From: Chondrosia reniformis
Taxonomy: Eukaryota > Porifera > Demospongiae > Chondrillida > Chondrillidae
Direction: 5' to 3'
Assembly (NCBI GenBank): GCA_947172415.1
Contig: OX359202.1
Span: 4,388,899-4,452,898, forward strand
Length of the DNA: 64,000 nucleotides
Positions 39,681-52,329 of this stretch are shown one piece after another. A program made the translations under genes and the position numbers. The notes beneath the pieces were generated by a model. It searched no databases, was not told the DNA's origin, and saw only the letters and a program-made list of their open reading frames with translations. How positions within the stretch are numbered: position 1 is the first letter of the stretch; every line of letters starts with the position of its first letter.

Positions 39681-42600
39681 ATGGCTTTTCTGAGTAGATT
39701 TCTCTTTGCCTCTTCGACTATGGTTCTAACAGCGACCGTGATTACAAATGCTTTTTACCAGAAGAAACAATTCTATCCATCCGTAGTACATCTCACCAAC
39801 TCCAGTCCCAGCATGGCGGTAAGTTGACAGTCCCAGCGATCGAGTGCTTTGTTATTGGAATGTCCGTTCCCTACTCTAGGTGATATATATGCAAGGACTC
39901 GTCCTGGTGTGGTTATTTGGACTCCTTCTGAGGAAGATTTTCTTTGGTGTCTTGAGGTCTCCAGAGGTAGAGGTAAACGGACTGTGCATCGCTACTTATT
40001 ACGTAGATAAGGGCCCATCAGGTATACACCAGAACTCCCACAATCTACAACGATGCACTTATACTATGTATATACGTGTAGCTACTTCTTACTCAAATAT
40101 TTGCTTCTCATAACTTATCTGACTTGCCTCCATTTAATAACCATTTTAACCCGTTACTGAACCTGTGTCCTAAGCCCAAGTATACTTTATTCTGTTAATT
40201 TTCCATACCTGGTACTCCCCCCATCACTTTTCTCTTCTTGCACGTAGCATATGGTGGATGAGTTTTGGTATGCTGTTCCTGAAACATGTCTCCTCTTTGC
40301 TGCTTTTCGAGAGAACCTTTCACCATTCTTTGTGACAACATTAACTTTTTTGTTCTTTTTTAAAGCTTTTCATTGGCTCGCTGATGCAAGAATAGATTTT
40401 GTTAGTAAGCCGTGTGTATGTGTACATAAGTGTAACAGAATGGCCATGAATCAGCCTTCAGCTTTAATTAGCTAACCAGGTTTTAATATTAATGATTGTA
40501 AGTATGACTTTTTCCACTCAAAACTCAATCTACATATATATATATGCTATGAATATCAAACCACTTAAAAAAACCTTGCTTCAAGTTTTACATGCAGCTC
40601 TGATAGTGTGCTAAACCATTATTTTCCTGTGAAGTGTTTAATTTAAATTGGTCTGGTATTATAATGAAATAAACAGAACTACTATAATACATATTACTTC
40701 CTCAGATGGAGCGTTCTCCTGTGATCACAAGAAAGTTTCATGTTCGAGCGATTGCCATGTTGATATTTCTCATCTTTGTGGATGGTGCACTGATAGCCAA
40801 GTCGGCAACTGGAGTGCTGACAGCTAAACCTTCTGTGGAAATGGTCTTTGCTTTAGAAGTGAGTCCCAGCAGTGTCAAGCTGTTGCCATACTAAGCTAGC
40901 CTACATGAGAAGTGGTTACATACATACCTGGTATTTGCAAACTGTACACAAACTGCCTGCCTCTATCACTAATTACATTGTAATGAGATAACTGGTATGC
41001 ATATGTAGGTCAACAAAACAATCTCATTGGTTCCATTTTATGATGCTCATAGTGCATTTGGATATATAGATTCCTCTTCTCTTGCAGTATACTGTTCTGT
41101 TGTTACTTGCCCTGAGTGTCTTGGCCAAGTATGTTCTGAACACAATTGATCTTCAGAGTGAGAATCCTTGGGACTACAAGACTGTTTACATGGCATACGT
41201 TCAAGTTGTTTTAGGTGAGTTGGTTAGCAAGTCCTGTGTAGGAGCTAGCCAGTTCTCCTGTGTGGGAGTTAGCCAGTCCTCCTGTGTAGGAGCTAGCCAG
41301 TCCTCCTGTGTAGGAGTTAGCCAGTCCTCCTGTGTAGGAGCTAGCCAGTCCTCCTGTATAGGAGTTAGCCAGTCCTCTTGTGTAGGAGTTAGCCTGTCCT
41401 GTGTAGGAGCTAGCCAGTCCTGTGTGGGAGTTAGCCAGTCCTCCTGTGTAGGAGCTAGCCAGTCCTCCTGTGTAGGAGTTAGCCAGTCCTCTTGTGTAGG
41501 AGTTAGCCTGTCCTGTGTAGGAGCTAGCCAGTCCTGTGTGGGAGTTAGCCAGTCCTCCTGTGTAGGAGCTAGCCAGTTCTCCTGTGTGGGAGTTAGCCAG
41601 TCCTCCTGTGTAGGAGTTAGCCCGTCCTCCTGTGTAGGAGCTAGCCAGTCCTCTTGTGTAGGAGTTAGCCTGTCCTGTGTAGGAGCTAGCCAGTCCTGTG
41701 CGGGAGCTAGCCAGTCCTCCTGTGTAAGAGCTAGCCAGTCCTCCTGTGTAGGAGTTAGCCTGTCCTGTGTAAGAGCTAGCCAGTCCTCCTGTGTAGGAGC
41801 TAGCCAGTCCTCCTGTGTAAGAGCTAGCCAGTTCTCCTGTGCCTTGTTTGTGTGTCTTTGCAGGTTTCCTAAAAATGACTGCCTTCTTTGGATTTATGAT
41901 ATTTATGGCCAAAGTTCACATCTTTCCATTGTATATTACAAGGAGGGTCTTCATGGCCATCAGGTTAGTTTAGTGTGCTTCAGGATTCCAAGTACTGTGT
42001 ATTGTGAGGACAGTAATGACTCCTTCCCTTGGTTAATTGTAGGAATTTCAAGAAGAGTGTGCAAGATATTGTTCTGTCAAGGAAAGCGATCTATAACTTG
42101 AATAATCTGTGAGTTATACCACTATTAAAAGTATACGTTTGTATCTGAGTATTTAAATTCTTATCCCTCCCCCTTGGTGTCTGGCCATGTCCCCACCCCT
42201 CCCCCTTGGTGTCTGGCCATGTCCCCACCCCTCCCCCTTGGTGTCTGGCCATGTCCCCACCCCTCCACCTTGGTGTCTGGCCATGTCCCCACCCCTCCCC
42301 CTTGGTGTCTGGCCATGTCCCCACCCCTCCCCCTTGTTAACTGGCCATATCCCCACCCCTCCCCCTTGGTGTCTGGCCATGTCCCCACCCCTCCCCCTTG
42401 GTGTCTGGCCATGTCCCCACCCCTCCCCCTTGTTAACTGGCCATATCCCCACCCCTCCCCCTTGGTGTCTGGCCATGTCCCCACCCCTCCCCCTTGTTAA
42501 CTGGCCATATCCCCACCCCTCCCCCTTGGTGTCTGGCCATGTCCCCACCCCTCCCCCTTGGTGTCTGGCCATGTCCCCACCCCTCCCCCTTGGTGTCTGG

Positions 42601-44986
42601 CCATGTCCCCACCCCTACCCCTTGGTGTCTGGCCATGTCCCCACCCCTACCCCTTGGTGTCTGGCCATGTCCCCACCCCTCCCCCTTGGTGTCTGGCCAT
42701 GTCCCCACCCCTCCCCCTTGGTGTCTGGCCATGTCCCCACCCCTCCCCCTTGTTAACTGGCCATATCCCCACCCCTCCCCCTTGGTGTCTGGCCATGTCC
42801 CCACCCCTCCCCCTTGGTGTCTGGCCATGTCCCCACCCCTCCCCCTTGGTGTCTGGCCATGTCCCCACCCCTCCCCCTTGGTGTCTGGCCATGTCCCCAC
42901 CCCTCCCCCTTGTTAACTGGCCATGTCCCCACCCCTCCCCCTTGGTGTCTGGCCATGTCCCCACCCCTCCACCTTGTTAACTGGCCATGTCCCCACCCCT
43001 CCCCTTGTTAACTGGCCATGTCCCCACCCATCCCCCTTGTTAACTGGCCATGTCCCCACCCCTCCCCTTGTTCAGGTACCCTGATGTGACAGCTGAGGAG
43101 CTGCAGTCTGGAGATGCCATGTGTGTTATTTGTAGAGAAGAGATGACAGAGAATGCCAAGAAGCTTCCTTGCAAGCACATCTTCCACGCAGCCTGCCTGC
43201 GATCCTGGTTCCAAAGACAACAAGTCTGTCCCACCTGTCGTATTGATGTCCTCAGCAAAACAGCAGAGCTGCAAGCAATTCAGCTTCAGAGGGAAAGGGC
43301 AGTTCAAAGAAGACTGCAGAATCAACAGGCTGATAATCCTATCAGACAAAATGGCGGTCAGTCTAATAGCACAATCAGCACTGTACTCCAAAACTATATT
43401 TGTGATAGAATAATGATTTCTTCTATTTGTCTAGCATATATTTTGGAAGGATCATCTTTCGACTTTTAGAGCATCTAAGCATCACTGAAGAAGACCCTCG
43501 GGGTCGAAACGTCTGGCGCTCAGGAGAGACTACAAAGCTGCATCTTTAGATTCTCTAAAAGTCGAAAGATTATTCTTTCAAAAGATATATTTGTGATTTA
43601 TGTACGTATGTGTATTCCTTTTCTGTAGAGTTTCCGCAAATACCTCAAAATTTACAACAGCTCTTTGCACCCCAGCCACTGATCCCTCAACAAGAACCTC
43701 CAGCAGAGAACACTGAGAATGCTCCAGAAGACAAGAATGATTCAAAAGACAAGGAAAATGGAGGACCACCACAGGACCAACCAAACTTTTCCTTATTAGG
43801 AAGCCTTCCTCCCTTTTCAAGCGGCTTCCAGACATTGGATCCTAAGTTAAAGGATACTCTGTCACAAAATGGATCATTTCCTCAGTTGCCACCAATTCCT
43901 CCGCATTTACTGCCTCTGGGTGAGGAGTGTGTATATTCATACTTGGGTAGTAAGTATGTATGTAGCTCACTGTAACTGTATTGCCTTTATAGGAGCAATG
44001 CCTACTGATCCAAAATCATTAAGATTGAGTCTTCTCACTGATGAGGAGTTGATGAATCTTGAGGGAGAGGAGAGGAAGAATGTTGAAGCAAGGATTGCAG
44101 TTCTGAGGAATATCCAGCTCTTACTGGACTCTGCGGTTGCTCAAGTGAACCAGTACTATGTAGTAACAGGAAGGTTAGCTCACCACGTTATTCCCTCAGA
44201 TTTAGTAGTTTATTAATGGCCAATAATGACTGTCTGATAGGATGTACAAAAACAACAAATATCTGACTATACAGTTACATGATTCAGACTATAGTAAAAG
44301 ATGATGATAATGATATTTATGATCTCCATGAAAGGTGGAATTCCCAGAAACATCTGTCTGGCCAAGGAAGGAGAAAACTCTCATATCCTCATCTAAAGCT
44401 CTCCTATTGGCCTTTTAATCTAAAGTAGATGTAGCATGTTCAAAAATGATGTTACATTATTTGTGCAATTTTTTCATAAGATCTTTGATAAAACATGTCA
44501 GCTAGATATTTCACTGTTCCGTTCAAAGCCATTTTATCCACATGCAGCTTGCCCTTTCAAGACAGACTGGTGTTGACTGACTTGATGAAGACTACAGCCA
44601 CAGGCTATAATAGACCAACTAAAAAGGTAGCAAGTTCAATGGGATCTGCTGCTCCTGGTCCCTCCTCTACTTCCACCACTTTGGAAACCACACCCACTAC
44701 AGCCACACCCCCTCAGAAGATTAATGTGCAAGCTAGTGAAGATGTGACACCCTCAGTCCCCCTCCACAGGAGTATGACCTGGAGCCCTCAGACTCCCAGC
44801 ACACCCTCCGTGTTTGGTAGCGTCTTGGAAGACAAGGACAAGGCTGACGAGTCTCAAGATGACCAGCCTGTCAAGAGGAGCATAAGCATGCCACCTAGCT
44901 CTGATGCTGAACTCAGGCAGAGAAGGCTTGAAAAGCTGGAAGATATAAAAAGAAGCTCGTCGCAAGGAAATTCAGAGGAGAAATGA
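39681..44986 (+). CDS. SYVN1: SYVN1/HRD1, ER-associated degradation E3 ubiquitin ligase
   Basis: Eleven exons, 673 residues: 39681-39818, 39880-39972, 40248-40400, 40706-40858, 41088-41214, 41864-41963, 42043-42108, 43076-43356, 43629-43919, 43993-44173, 44548-44986. HRD1 retrotranslocates and ubiquitinates misfolded ER proteins with SEL1L. The N-terminal half is multi-spanning with family motifs FYPSVVHLTNSSPSMAV, WYAVPETC, FHWLADARIDFVMERSP and DLQSENPWDYKTVYM. The RING-H2 finger is CVICREEM, LPCKHIFHAACLRSWF, QQVCPTC. Then come a Pro/Gln-rich stretch, a conserved helix (LTDEELMNLEGEERKNVEAR, LRNIQLLLDSA) and a C-terminal AELRQRRLEKLE that also ends the vertebrate protein. Introns 5 and 7 are filled by minisatellites; intron 8 holds a palindromic hammerhead-like element. 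Confidence 0.95.
41223..41840 (+). repeat. 24-bp minisatellite in SYVN1 intron 5
   Basis: About 26 units of 24 bp (AGCCAGTCCTCCTGTGTAGG then AGYT), with 21-bp variants, grouped in higher-order sets. Each unit holds CTCCTGTGTAGGAG, able to form a five-base-pair hairpin, and GCTAGC. Unit length is a multiple of three with no stops, so long frames appear on both strands; they are artefacts, since the exons on either side splice cleanly around it. Confidence 0.95.
42164..43070 (+). repeat. 32-bp C-rich minisatellite in SYVN1 intron 7
   Basis: About 28 units of 32 bp: GGTGTCTGGCCATGTCCCCA then CCCCTCCCCCTT, with a GTTAACTGGCCATATCCCCA variant interspersed. It is almost pure pyrimidine over half of each unit; the minus strand has repeated runs of four or five G. 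The array ends five bases before the acceptor CAG of exon 8, so it supplies that exon's polypyrimidine tract. Confidence 0.95.
43454..43570. mobile_element. 117-bp palindromic element with hammerhead-like core
   Basis: Terminal inverted repeats of 25 bp (43454-43478 and 43546-43570) match at 24 positions. Between them, 43485-43513 reads CTGAAGAAGACC, loop, GGGGTCGAAACGTC: a full CTGANGA box, a five- to six-base-pair stem II and GAAA. SYVN1 intron 8. Related to 51152-51276. Confidence 0.75.
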
Positions 44987-45100: not shown

Positions 45101-45428
45101 ATGGCCGACAATAGGACCGCGAGCGATACAAAGTTGCATTCTCTGGCTGAAGGGAGGGAGGCCTTTGAAAGTATGATATAAGTGTATTAACATGCACTAC
45201 TTAGATATCATCTTATTAAAGAACAAAATCTATCCTCATTTTTGCTACTGTGCAGTTGTAAAGGAGATATCTCGGGTACTGGGGACCGGATTGGATGACG
45301 AAACACTCAGAATATGTATCCAACTTTGTGAAGCTGGTGTTAATCCTGAAGCACTTAGTCATGTTATAAGGGAATTAAGGAGAGAGGCAGCAACCTTAGA
45401 CGTTAGTTTGTCACGTCAAACACTCTGA
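45101..45428 (+). CDS. MZT1: MOZART1 (mitotic-spindle organising protein 1)
   Basis: Two exons, 45101-45170 and 45256-45428, encode 80 residues. MZT1 binds the N-termini of gamma-tubulin complex proteins and helps recruit and activate gamma-tubulin ring complexes at microtubule-organising centres. The family core is clear: [22 protein letters not shown] sequence (after splicing [14 protein letters not shown]), then [20 protein letters not shown] and RELRRE, matching the human protein of 82 residues almost end to end. The N-terminus is Asp/Arg-rich and variable as in other species. The start lies only 114 bp after the SYVN1 stop on the same strand. Confidence 0.93.
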
Positions 45429-45807: not shown

Positions 45808-48800
45808 ATGTCCGTTGAAGGAAGTCAAGGAGGTTTGCTATTGGTTGTAAACAGTTATGGACATGGAGTACAGGGTTTAGCTCCTTTGCCATTTGCCGAT
45901 GAAGGAATAGTTGATTATGTGAAAACATTTTGCGGTCACCTTTCGTTTCGATATTGTAGAATTGCCAGTGATTGTACGAAAGAGACGTTCAATACACGCC
46001 TGAGCGAATTTATTAGCCAATGGCCACAGCGCTATAGCGACGAAGTCTCTAAATATTTCATGGTATTTGTGTTTGTGGGACATGCTGGAGGTGACTGTCT
46101 GTACATGAACAATGGCGAACAAATCCGCTTTTACTCCGATGTTGTTGATCACTTTGCGAGATACCTACCAAATGTTCTGAAGATATTTATTATTGAAGGC
46201 TGCCGAAAAGCAAATGCCGTTCTGAAGGTCCCAGAGCATTCCAACTGTGTCTTCTTATTCTCTACTCTGCCTTTTTGTATAGCTTTTTGGGGATGCGACC
46301 ATGGCCGTTATGCAATTGCATCATATCTGTTGAATGAAGAATTAAGAACTAACACTGGTACCCTGGAAGTGGTTGTTACCACTGTCAATGAAAAGATGAG
46401 GCAGCTCTACAATAGCGATCAGGCATTTCAGTACATTGTGAACAATGTGCCTCCAGTGATTCTTTTCAGACGACAGAAGAGTGTGGAGATTACTGATGAG
46501 CTAAAAGAGATGTTGGAGGTGTATACCAGGAACATGGATGCCTTTCGGCAAGGTTTGTAATCATGTTTCTGTTAGATGCACTTCCTGTGTGATAGGTTAA
46601 ACAGTAGTAGCCATGAATTTTCTGAGCTCTACAGAATGCTATAATCCACTATCCAACCTACTGGCTAGCAATTAACTTTATATTCTTCATTGCAATGGCT
46701 GTATAGTATATTATTATAATATATTTTCATGATAGAACATCCGGAGATTGTGAGAGAGCATTGCAAACAGCGTGGCCAATTAGAGTATACTTTTGAAGGA
46801 CCATCAATCAGTAAAGAGAGAGGTGAGTAGATAGACACGGTGTAAAGTGCGACTACAAACATATTCCAAACATGAAATTGTAATTATGTGGTAGTGCACT
46901 TCATATTCTAAAGACAAAGTCCCTTCTAAAAGTATTGGTCCTTGTGTAATATTTATTGTTCATATTATAAAGTGGAATACCATATAGTTACATTATATTC
47001 ATATTATATACAACAAGGTACATCAGGCATCTGCAACATTGAGTTGCCATTCTACATGCTTGCGTCATCTAGAAATTATAGTTATAATTTGATTGGTTTT
47101 TTGACCATGGAATCCCTACATTAGAACCACGGATATGATAGGTAACAACAAAATTATAAGTCTGATTTTAATTTACTATAAACTAGTATCTGTATTGTAT
47201 TAATAATTCGTTTGATTCCAACCAAATGATTTTACAATAATTTGTTACTAAATCATTACTGACGTTTCGACTATATGCTATGGCCTTCATCAGAGTACAG
47301 CAAAACTAAATCTAAAGAAGTCTATGGTATTTGAACCAATTGTGGTGGATTAAGTTGAGCATGCTGTACATTAACCAATGTGTATTAGCCTCTTAATTAT
47401 TCAAGAAACTGTGAGTGATAATATAATAATGCCATTGTTATGCATGTGATGTTTAGACCAAGATCTTGGATTAAGGCATAGAAAAAAATATTCCAGCTTA
47501 GTAATGACTCAAGATGATATATGTGAGAAGAAAGACAAAAAGAAGGAAAGCAGTGAGTAAAAGTGTAGTTTATTTGCACTGCACAAATATTATACATTTT
47601 GTGTGGTAGATTGTATTGATCATGAGATGTTCTCCAATTAAAAGACAGAACACCTCACAATCCAATAGTGGTTTTAGAACAATTTGAAGACATCTTTTTC
47701 TAAATTTGATTTGGTACATTTCCTTCAAAATGAATGATATTGTCATATACTCACTGCTATATGTAGAAATGTAGAGGAGGGGATTTTCAGTAATATACAT
47801 GGAAAAGCAAGCACCAATGCTAAAAGTTTTAATGTGCTTGAGTAAGCTAGCCTGGTAAAATCCATAGCTCTAAGTTGTATAGCTAGTCATTAGAGTTAGT
47901 ATGTCACTGTACAATAATAGAGGGAAGAGAGGGATTTATACAAGTTAGGCAAAAAAAACCTTCCTCTATATGCATCTCTGGTGTTCCACACATGCACATG
48001 CATCTTTTTGTGTAGGAAAATTTAAAGTTTCCAGTTGGCAGTGTTACTCAAGATTTCTGTGTGTAATTGTTTTGGCAGTCCTTGTAACAGCATGCATATG
48101 GTGGTGCTATCCATCATGTGATGCTAAGGTTGGGATATCCATATACGATTATAAGCATGTCGTTAATGCATGTACTACTAAATGTACATATTACGCATCT
48201 TGTATGTCTTATTGTATTCAGGTACTAAAGGACTATACTAGCCTACTAAGATCCATTTATCAGAGGAAGACACCGATAGAGGGTGATCCACGTCTGAGTT
48301 ATGTGCCGGTAGAATTAAGGACAATGGATCCAAACTATTGTGTGAAGGTTGCTGAAAGCAAACACTATAAGCAGAGCAAGGAAGATGCAGAGCAGGTCTT
48401 TGTAGAAAACATGTTTAAAGCTAATACTGAATTGCTACCTTCAGATGGATATTTAAAATCAATCAATCAATCAATAAAATCAATCTCTAGCATACTTCTG
48501 GATGATGTAAACAGTATGATAGCATTGATAGGTGCACCTGGAATTGGTAAAACCACTCTACTTCACCACGTGCTCCACAGCTTAGGTTTAGATAACTCCA
48601 CCCTACACTTAAGGTATGATTTAATTCTCTACTTTCCACTGAGAGCCAAGAGAGTGCAAAATGCCAACGACTTGATTGAACTCTTGCAATATTACCAAGG
48701 AAATATTGATTATGAGTGTTTGTATAAGAAGCTGCTTAATAATTTGGGGGATCGAGTATTGTTTTTATTTGATGGCCTGGATGAGGCAGGTTCTCTTCTT

Positions 48801-51800
48801 AGAAGAGAAACTTCCTATTTTAACGAGTTGTTGCAGGGTCATCTGCTATCAAATTCCACAGTTGTAGTTACCACACGCCCTGTAGCCTATCAGCACTTGT
48901 GTCGTTATACAAATAATTTCTATGCCATCCAAGGGTTTTCTGAGTTGCAGATCTACAAGTATGCCGAACAATATTTTTCTTATGATAGTCATCTAAGTGT
49001 AGAGAACTTCATCAAAGAACTTGAATCCAAACATGACCTTTATGCTGCAGCATATATTCCTGTCAATTTGCTGGTATTTTGTCAAGTGTTTTCTCATAAC
49101 AAGGGATCTCTTCTACCAACTATTACTGCCAATTACAAGGAGTTTTTTCTTCATCTCCTCTCAAAGCACATTGAGAAACGAGATAATTTAGTAATATCTT
49201 GGCCTGTAAATGCCGACTTCAGGGATTTACCTCAGAAGGAATTGGTCTTCATTAACAAATTAAGTAAACTAAGCTTCAATGGTGTTAAAGATCCTACTAA
49301 TAGATATTATGTATTTGAAAAAGAAATGGTGAAGGAAATATTTGAGCTAGAAGATATGGAGACATTTGATGGTAAAGGTTTCTTTGATGTTCAACTGGTT
49401 GATACTTCAAAATATTCACTAAAGCATCCTACCTTACAAGAATTTCTTGGTGCTCACTATCTAACTTGCCTAGATGAATTCGAGCAGGTGGAATTTTGGT
49501 CCACAAATGTTAACTTTCCTGCCATGGCTATGGTATTTCGTTTTTATTGTGGACTTTCTGGGATAAGGTCCTACGAAATGCAAAAGGTGTTATTAGCTAA
49601 GTTTAAGGCATTACCTAATAAAATTAAAATTACAAGTAAAGATTCCTATACCCTAATGGTACTACTTGCACTGCATGAATCAGACAACGACAAGCTTACA
49701 AAGGAGATTGTGCAATCACTCAGTAGCAATATTCAATTTAATTTGATACTTGGTCCCTATGAGTTGTTGATTATTTCGCATTGTTTGTCCAAATGTTTTC
49801 ATTTAAAAGAGCTTTATTTTAGTGGCCAAATTGAATCTAGTTGGTTGTTACAGATCTCAAAAATAGCCAAAAGTAATACAGCTCTACTTTCTCTTGGTTT
49901 GAATATGAAGTCATTGGAAGAATCCCGTTAGTTCTAAATGTACATAATGTATATCTGTGTACCTGTACAACCTTTATACTGTAAATGTTTAAATAGAGGC
50001 CTGGGCTTCTATTTTGTTCCTGTTATTTAGACCCAGTCTCAATTCAAAGCTGCATGACCTCTAAACATGTATGTATGTACCATATGTGTACAAATTTTCA
50101 TGGGACATAAATTTCCCGATTTTCACGAATCAACATGGGTTTGTGAAATTAAAAATGCACCCATACTTAGGCCTTTAACATGTGATGCAGAATGCCCAGG
50201 AAGACGATCAAGGATTACTTTAAGACTGCAGATGTTTTTGTTAAGGACTTGTCATCAATGTCTGAGTTCTCCAGCTGCAGATGTTGATACCACGTGCACA
50301 AAAGGAGTCAATCTTCAGGCACACTCGGGAATTCGTGAAAAATCCCCACTTGAGGGGCATTCGCGAAATATACATCCAGCAAAAATTTGTACGCATACGG
50401 TATATAAAGGTTGCCTTGTAACTATAAGTAACAATTTTAGAACATTACCAACATTTTTAAACTTACCGTATATTATTCAGATGCAAAAGCTCTCTTTCAA
50501 TCCACTGGATCTCTTGAGGAGTTAACAATATGGATTCAGTATGATGTCAGTGTATCAGCCCTTGTTTCAATTTTTTCACTAAAGCAATTAACTAACTTAT
50601 CAATTGATATTACTGGTCAACTTGAAAGCACTTCTCAAGTGAGTGTGTATCTGTGCATGTGTACTGTATACTTATAATATAAAAGAAAAGTACATGGCTT
50701 GATTTCACCAAAGACTAAGTTATAATATAATTCCCTCTGTCATGAGTAGTCATTTATGATCTCTAATTTTTTTTCTACATTGTTTATTAAATGTGTATTA
50801 ATATTTTATGTATATTAGGATGAGCAAGCATTTAATGAATCAGTTGAAAAGAATAAAAAGTTGAAACATTTGAAATTACTTCACAGTGCTATAGCTAGTG
50901 TTATTTTAAAGGCCCTGTTCTTCAGTAGCTCCTTGGAATCTTTGACATTATACAGTGAGTAACATTGGTGCTTTTCTGCAGTGTGAATAAATCTTTAATT
51001 CATGTGCAAGAACGCAATAGGCAGTGTGCAACAGGATATACGTACATGCCCCTAAACCCACTTATTATAGATCATATACGTACGTACAGTATGTATATAT
51101 ATGTAGATGATAAGGATGTCTTTCTAACTGCACCAAACTTATCTTTGAGATGGTTCATCTTTTAGTCTTTTGAGCATCTAGATACACAGTTGGTTCTTTA
51201 GGGATTCAAACGTTTTGACCCTGGAAGTCTTCTTCAGTGACTGAACCTAGATGCTCAAACGACTAAAAGATGAACCAAGTGATTTATATAGTTAAGTCAC
51301 TTATTCTCTATGGTTAGCCTTATCACATAATCACTGTCTTGTTTTGTTATATATACTTTACAGGTGTACTAGTAACTGTTTTGAGCATGCACTATCATCC
51401 TTATACTGCTAGCTTCAGTTTGAAGTGTTTTTATTTACTTTATTTTACATATACGTATATAGGCCCTGACCATTTAAAGAGAGAATATCTTGAGTTTTGC
51501 CTTAATATATCAAATTTGACCTATCTTGAACTGAAGTTAGCAGATCCTCTGCCTTTGTTGGAGGCCCTTAGCCTAAGCAGGAAAACAATCAGGAATGTAA
51601 CAATTATGTTACCCCAATGGCCAGAGGTAATTTAGTTAATTGAGCATTTTGGACTATATTTCAATTGGTTCTCATAAATGTATAGTAGACTCACACCAAG
51701 TGGATACCATTGAAATGCAGACGTTTGTGATATTCATGCAGTTTTGTATATATACAGTGTAATCTGGTTAACAAGTACTCCTTTTTAGTTCTCATTACCA

Positions 51801-52329
51801 GTAGTAAAGCGTGTTCATGTTAGCTATAGTCTCCACTGTATATACGGCTGTAGCTTGAAATATTTGTGGGAATAGTCAGTTATATAGTCAGTTGTATAGA
51901 TTAGTTGTCCAAAAATATGGTGATTAGCAGATTTTATCATTTTTTCTGAATGAGGAGGTTACGTATACTCCTGAGTGTTTTACTGGTCATAAATTAGTTA
52001 TAAGCTGTATTAACTGGCAAACTATTTCAATATGTTATTGTTAAAACCTTTTGTTGTAGGCACTAGACTCTGAAACGGAAAGTCAAAAATTAAAGGGTCT
52101 TTGTAGTGAAGTCAACGTAGAACATCTATCACTGGATGTTGAACATGATTGGAGAAACACTGTTAAAAGTGATTTGATAACCTTCAACATAGCTACAGCT
52201 GTTATACATGGGTTTTCTCAAAACAAAAGGTTAAAGAAACTCATTTTAAAGAATGTACCCGTAACACTTAAAGATTTCACAGAGAGAGAATTGGGAAGTA
52301 GACCTTTTACATATAAAGTCTTATTCTGA
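45808..52329 (+). CDS. NLR-type protein: caspase-like domain, membrane segment, NACHT, LRR-like repeats
   Basis: Eight exons close in frame, 1188 residues: 45808-46552, 46736-46822, 47457-47552, 48016-49926, 50481-50638, 50819-50954, 51463-51626, 52060-52329. Residues 1-248 resemble a caspase (C14) fold: FMVFVFVGHAGG carries His92, FIIEGCRK carries Cys132 in the place of caspase QACRG, and a p10-like part follows (CVFLFSTLPF, VVVTTVNEK). A charged linker (EKKDKKKES) precedes a hydrophobic helix at about 323-341 (FLCVIVLAVLVTACIWWCY). NACHT follows: Walker A GAPGIGKTT (about 481) and Walker B LFLFDGLDEAG, then a helical domain (LKHPTLQEFLGAHYL, a typical NLR winged-helix end). The last four exons give leucine-rich-repeat-like sequence (LEELTIW, LKQLTNLSI, LKHLKLL, LTYLEL). 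Likely a membrane-anchored innate sensor with a built-in effector; catalysis unproven. Confidence 0.82.
47261..47293 (-). repeat. Hammerhead-like Penelope-tail motif
   Basis: On the minus strand: CTGATGAAGGCCATAGCATA then TAGTCGAAACGTC. It has a complete CTGATGA box and GAAAC. Stem II is imperfect. In intron 3 of the NLR-type gene. Confidence 0.6.
51152..51276. mobile_element. 125-bp palindromic element with hammerhead-like core
   Basis: Terminal inverted repeats of 30 bp (51152-51181 and 51247-51276) match at 29 positions (outer words GGTTCATCTTTTAGTC and GACTAAAAGATGAACC). Inside, on the minus strand, GTCACTGAAGAAGACTTCC and GGGTCAAAACG form a variant of the hammerhead-like core. In NLR intron 6. 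Confidence 0.75.
51309..51365. repeat. Dispersed repeat, copy 3
   Basis: TGGTTAGCCTTATCACATAA and TCACTGTCTTGTTTTGTTA, as at 24840 and 32681. In NLR intron 6, just downstream of the palindromic element. Confidence 0.6.

Follow-up and report, generated by a model that had tools for sequence, protein, structure and literature searches.

A probable NLR with a caspase-fold domain in its N-terminal slot in the sponge Chondrosia reniformis

In animal inflammasomes and in the apoptosome, sensor proteins recruit caspases through death-fold adaptor domains. Here we describe a gene of the demosponge Chondrosia reniformis that may depart from this scheme. It lies at positions 45,808 to 52,329 of a 64,000-nucleotide stretch (the window; C14:4388899-4452898), and combines a caspase-fold domain, a hydrophobic helix, a NACHT domain and leucine-rich-repeat-like (LRR-like) exons. 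We consider it rather likely that the gene encodes an NLR in which a C14 caspase-fold protease occupies the N-terminal slot instead of DEATH or CARD, and in which clustering by the NACHT domain would activate the protease without an adaptor. If this holds true, an animal NLR can dispense with the adaptor step, sensing and cutting being joined in a single protein. A natural comparison of both designs would then be offered by the caspase, DEATH and CARD-like versions that occur within one genome.

The closest described systems come from another demosponge. In the NLR study on Dysidea avara, CASc is named among the NLR domains in the legend of Figure 2A and transmembrane NLRs are reported (PMC12909245); demosponge NLRs with a caspase domain, as the present gene appears to encode, are thus already listed and this kind of architecture is known. 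The accessible text of that paper leaves the position of the caspase domain undiscussed, contains no catalytic, S1-pocket or exon-swap analysis, and has no occurrence of the name Chondrosia (PMC12909245). A literature search for Chondrosia reniformis together with NACHT yielded a single paper, in which the sponge is named only among the references, and an earlier description from Amphimedon, in a 2014 NLR study, is possible. Within the C. reniformis genome the closest NACHT paralogs are of the sponge death-domain type (NLRD). They share the NACHT body exon with the window gene and have a DEATH exon where the latter has the protease exon, linkers and helix exon.

More distant parallels exist as well. 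In bacterial metacaspase-NACHT-WD40 proteins a single chain likewise has a C14 protease placed before the NACHT domain and a sensor made of repeats (PMC3501461). These repeats are WD40 in place of the LRR-like ones found here, and the protease of the window gene is nearer to animal caspases in profile and fold. An earlier note on this DNA had drawn an analogy to fused metacaspase-like effectors in bacteria and fungi; the bacterial half is apt, and the fungal half is weak, as the table of a fungal NLR survey lists a serine peptidase S8 and the consulted parts of its text name no caspase-type effector (PMC4986451). The LRR-caspase and TNFR-caspase hybrids of amphioxus also place receptor and caspase in one animal gene, adaptor-free as proposed here, but without NACHT and with the caspase motif QACxG instead of EGCRK (PMC2575513). 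No caspase-NACHT fusion was seen in the consulted parts of the fungal (PMC4986451), cnidarian (PMC8260672) and ctenophore (PMC11797021) NLR literature.

The gene and its caspase-fold domain

Rebuilding the eight-exon model of the earlier note from the sequence reproduced its closure in a single frame, with 3537 nucleotides, 1179 residues and GT...AG at all junctions. The count of eight exons fared less well. Exon 4 of that model (48016-49896, forward strand) includes a frame-preserving 93-nucleotide stretch with GT...AG ends (48129-48221), which is probably an intron. Five NACHT paralogs, the closest ones at 42-43% identity, all align from the second residue encoded by the exon starting at 48222, and the three of them that were inspected (L040, L052 and L053) have an acceptor at the corresponding position. 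Nine exons and 1148 residues are therefore likelier, with the helix encoded by a separate 113-nucleotide exon. The features of the nine-exon model are as follows.

45258..45425, forward strand: MOZART1-like exon (PF12554, 78.6 bits), a neighbour outside the gene that marks its upstream boundary
45808..46552, forward strand: exon 1 (residues 1-248), a C14 caspase-fold domain by Pfam, PDB profile and fold search; ends in phase 1
46081-46083 and 46201-46203, forward strand: codons of the dyad residues His92 and Cys132 in exon 1, invariant in nine of nine copies
46736..46822, forward strand: exon 2, linker, phase 1-1, in frame; similar sequence lies behind the caspase exon in two copies on C7, one of which (L025) has a counterpart with 54% identity across 24 residues
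47457..47552, forward strand: exon 3, lysine-rich linker, phase 1-1, in frame, with the consensus donor GTGAGT; no confirming paralog was found
48016..48128, forward strand: exon 4, hydrophobic helix, residues 323-341 (hydropathy); phase 1 to phase 0
48129..48221, forward strand: in-frame 93-nucleotide stretch, probable intron (coding in the eight-exon model; GT...AG, paralog exon starts)
48222..49896, forward strand: NACHT body exon with Walker A and Walker B; PF05729 match at about 48516-48980
50481..50638, forward strand: LRR-like exon with LxxLx[LIV] motifs; counterpart exon in L040
50819..50954, forward strand: LRR-like exon, in frame, with LxxLx[LIV] motifs; no match in L040
51463..51626, forward strand: LRR-like exon with LxxLx[LIV] motifs; counterpart in L040 (E 0.004)
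52060..52329, forward strand: last exon including the stop codon; counterparts in L040 (37% over 67 residues) and, by eye, in L052

Three approaches agree in supporting a caspase fold for residues 1-248, and none placed the domain outside the caspase clan. Pfam assigns Peptidase_C14 to exon 1 with 25.0 bits (cut-off 21.4), a profile search finds caspases in the PDB with an E-value of 3.4e-8, and a fold search also returns the caspase fold. In the profile alignment His92 (VGHAGG, residues 90-95) and Cys132 (EGCRK, residues 130-134) coincide with the caspase dyad, in line with the positions given by the earlier note. Two results weigh against this assignment: with the window sequence on its own, the PDB search gives four matches within E 1, none better than E 0.64, and reaches significance only with the profile, and the predicted structure has low confidence (predicted local distance difference test, pLDDT, 50.5). 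A search of NCBIfam gave nothing relevant.

The genome searched comprises 15 contigs with 117,379,552 bases. A whole-genome scan for Peptidase_C14 returned 20 rows. Of the nine-member family it recovered three, plus a partial copy, and since the exon in the window was itself overlooked, the scan under-counts. Among 198 candidates a single-sequence protein search recovered only the window's own protein, and the nine-sequence profile (E <= 0.01) picked three of 2643 candidates, namely the same protein and two matching loci, L012 and L017. Neither search, both of which reached no other sponge, thus brought up a homologue from outside this genome. For alignment and tree, 15 rows were found, of which six partial ones (L018-L023, five with an internal stop) were excluded. 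The remaining nine copies form one group (100/97). In the midpoint-rooted tree they stand, together with L048 and the long branch L049, apart from L043-L047 (100/99).

The part of the protein behind the helix resembles an NLR body. Pfam detects NACHT (PF05729) with 77.7 bits and an E-value of 1.2e-21, and both Walker motifs noted earlier are intact, GAPGIGKTT at residues 482-490 and LFLFDGLDEAG at 558-568 in the numbering of the eight-exon model. For the C-terminal part, described earlier as LRR-like, motif counts and Pfam diverge: seven LxxLx[LIV] motifs compare with 2.44 +/- 1.45 in shuffled sequences, 17 of 2000 of which reach seven, and the Pfam search of this part returned no LRR and no WD40 match. 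At the N-terminus, where canonical vertebrate NLRs have CARD, DEATH or PYD, exon 1 is Peptidase_C14.

Linkage and exon exchange at the N-terminal slot

Does the caspase exon belong to the same gene as the NACHT domain? Four observations suggest that the protease-like domain is probably built into the sensor, as the earlier note had proposed: linkage, the slot of the DEATH exon, an exon swap on chromosome 6, and exon phase. A NACHT domain on the same strand starts 1.7-2.6 kb behind the caspase exon in four of the nine copies, and 11.2 kb behind it in a fifth. This count used 12 of 101 NACHT places, those near copies on the relevant chromosomes. Chance linkage would have a probability of 0.0013 per copy and of 3.5e-10 for four of nine, under even independent placement, an assumption violated by tandem duplication. 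As to phase, seven of the nine loci show G|GT directly behind exon 1; L031 and L032 do not.

The closest relatives point the same way. All three inspected paralogs have a DEATH exon upstream of NACHT, recognized in L040 with 23.6 bits (cut-off 22.6) and assigned in L052 and L053 by 87-97% identity. Six DEATH or CARD-like queries found no match in the gene's part of the window; their sole match (E 0.25) lies at 58.3 kb.

The competing explanation is that of two neighbouring genes. Exons 1-3 would form a caspase-like gene terminating within intron 3, and the NLR would be a second gene with its own ATG in the helix exon. A polyadenylation-type hexamer, ATTAAA, at 47637, 85 nucleotides beyond exon 3, could end a separate caspase transcript, read-through of the exon 3 donor reaches a stop within a few codons, and upstream of NACHT its frame stays open as far as an ATG that precedes the helix. 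Four of the nine copies have no NACHT nearby, and L024 has, between caspase and NACHT, an exon that resembles CARD only weakly (16.5 bits against a cut-off of 23.9), an arrangement that could represent two genes. In L028 (C6:1427501-1437500, minus strand) the exons behind the caspase copy are a pair of Death exons (41.2 and 29.9 bits), with no NACHT nearby; the caspase module therefore also pairs with death-fold exons. On the other side, the scanned 7.3 kb hold 11 such hexamers, so that a single ATTAAA is unsurprising, and exon 3 closes on a consensus donor. Moreover, an N-terminal exon precedes NACHT in the closest NLR relatives, and the window offers no other candidate for it; and shared flanks on chromosome 6 put caspase and CARD-like exons in the same slot. 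We thus regard two separate genes as unlikely and a single transcript, with the caspase domain built into the NLR, as probable.

The evidence from chromosome 6 concerns two caspase-type loci, L029 and L030, and a CARD-like NLR, L036. Ahead of the CARD-like ATG of L036, and ending 3 nucleotides short of it, lies a stretch of 424 nucleotides with 81-82% identity to the sequence upstream of the caspase ATG in L029 and L030. On the other side, the sequence that runs up to NACHT is 86-93% identical. Both flanks are common to the three loci, and only the N-terminal exon between them differs. This demonstrates at the sequence level that N-terminal exons have been exchanged among sister genes, and gives a direct view of NLR effector exchange.

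Some details fit this picture less well. The swap is clean only with respect to L036, as the flank is absent from L039 and in L037 is found about 0.9 kb ahead of the CARD-like ATG. Pfam gives the CARD-like exons 16.9 and 19.0 bits, less than its cut-off of 23.9, and finds no match at all for the frame in L037. For the window itself, no other locus has a convincing counterpart of the 5' flank in front of its N-terminal exon; beyond its own copy the flank matches a stretch reaching exon 1 in partial copies on C5 and short segments of 28-43 nucleotides.

Taken together with the bacterial parallel, these data allow a broader reading, which we put forward tentatively: the metacaspase-NACHT design may have been rebuilt in an animal lineage by exchange of N-terminal exons, in which adaptor domains of sponge NLRs gave way to a catalytic C14 protease with a non-caspase S1 pocket. 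Receptor and protease would then share one chain and need no adaptor, and one such protein would have a helix that interacts with the membrane.

Several other features were seen at the family loci. L029 (C6:251501-261500) and L030 (C6:221001-231000) contain long runs of a PPQNV-type five-residue repeat between the caspase and NACHT exons, which in L029 is open in all three forward frames. On the minus strand at L032 (C6:116901-126900), nearly identical frames are arrayed in tandem downstream of a caspase-like exon; Pfam recognizes fibronectin type III in the one frame tested (35.8 bits). Calls made by eye of a Death-like frame in L032 and of CARD-like frames in L027 and L037 were not borne out by Pfam and are discounted.

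Active site, substrate pocket and the question of activity

In caspase-7 the S1 pocket is formed by Arg87, Gln184 and Arg233, for which MALT1 has Asp365, Asp462 and Glu500 (PMC4357240). Aligned to caspases of the same genome, the corresponding sites in the window domain are Leu27, Glu130 and Trp161, while the Arg, Gln, Arg set is complete in all four canonical caspases L043-L046. All nine family members have Leu or Val at the first site, and the second is Asn in four, Asp in three, Glu in one (the window's Glu130, at the L4 position) and Gly in one; at the third, Arg is kept in one of nine, and the window has Trp161 where MALT1 has Glu500. The domain thus has the fold and the His/Cys dyad of caspases (C14A) and, because all three Asp-binding S1 residues are replaced, its sequence marks it as not a canonical Asp-cutting caspase. 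With paracaspases such as MALT1 (C14B) it shares the acidic residue two positions before Cys, but only one of the three acidic S1 positions of MALT1 is clearly matched (PMC4357240). The p20-p10 linker measures 18-25 residues in the nine family members, compared with 35-74 in L043-L046, and the family lacks the long cleavable linker of subfamily C14A.

These properties suggest a putative protease without Asp-P1 preference that would require little linker processing. On this basis a working mechanism can be proposed. A ligand would be recognized by the LRR-like C-terminus, whereupon the NACHT domain would exchange nucleotide and oligomerize. The protease domains would thereby be brought together and become active by proximity, with no adaptor and, because the p20-p10 linker is short, with little or no linker cleavage. 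Substrates would be cut outside the Asp-P1 rule of caspases, possibly after basic residues, and an immune role would be conceivable. The altered S1 pocket turns this into a sharp prediction on cleavage specificity.

Alternatively, the fused protein might carry its protease domain as a pseudoenzyme that serves docking or oligomerization. The Gly beside the catalytic His, structurally conserved across clan CD (PMC4357240), is Ala in the window, L010 and L011, which speaks against activity, as does the remodelled S1 pocket. Recent duplicates have ratios of nonsynonymous to synonymous substitution (dN/dS) of 0.55-1.17 by two methods, near 1. The more distant pair of window and L010 gives 0.25 by one method, at a dS of 1.61 that is near saturation, and argues in the other direction. 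So does the dyad, which has stayed fixed in all nine copies while the rest of the domain changes fast, suggesting that function was kept; the same genome holds a truly dead paralog for contrast, L047, in which both dyad residues are lost. A pseudoenzyme appears improbable to us, and we take the caspase-fold domain, in the effector position of this probable NLR, to be real and probably functional. L047 itself (C13:5344600-5345700) shares its strand with the intact caspase L046 at a distance of about 2 kb, a placement that would suit a decoy or an inhibitor.

The hydrophobic helix

At residues 323-341 the protein contains the hydrophobic helix described in the earlier note, with a mean hydropathy of 2.49 in a 19-residue window. 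Its N-terminal side carries seven basic residues and one acidic residue, its C-terminal side three basic and two acidic ones. According to the positive-inside rule, flanking charge sets the orientation of a spanning helix, so that the protease would be cytosolic and the NACHT and LRR part would come to lie on the other side. NACHT domains, however, use cytosolic nucleotide. A single spanning helix would thus split the protease from the NACHT domain, which makes a membrane tether doubtful and conflicts with the earlier proposal that such a tether couples recognition and cleavage. Nor was a comparable helix with confident splice sites seen in the linkers of L024, L029 and L030.

The hydropathy, the basic flank on one side and the predicted transmembrane NLRs of Dysidea avara, and of Amphimedon as cited there (PMC12909245), would fit a genuine single-pass receptor with protease and NACHT-LRR part on opposite sides of the membrane. 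Given the nucleotide requirement and the linkers of the three relatives, we judge such a receptor very unlikely. Peripheral or activation-dependent membrane insertion of the helix would avoid the conflict.

Elsewhere in the window, at 41070-43466, open frames with tandem in-frame repeats of the VSPPLPLGVWPCPHPS type run into a RING-finger frame. By eye the latter has the look of a synoviolin-type ubiquitin ligase, and the repeats may be intronic or coding.
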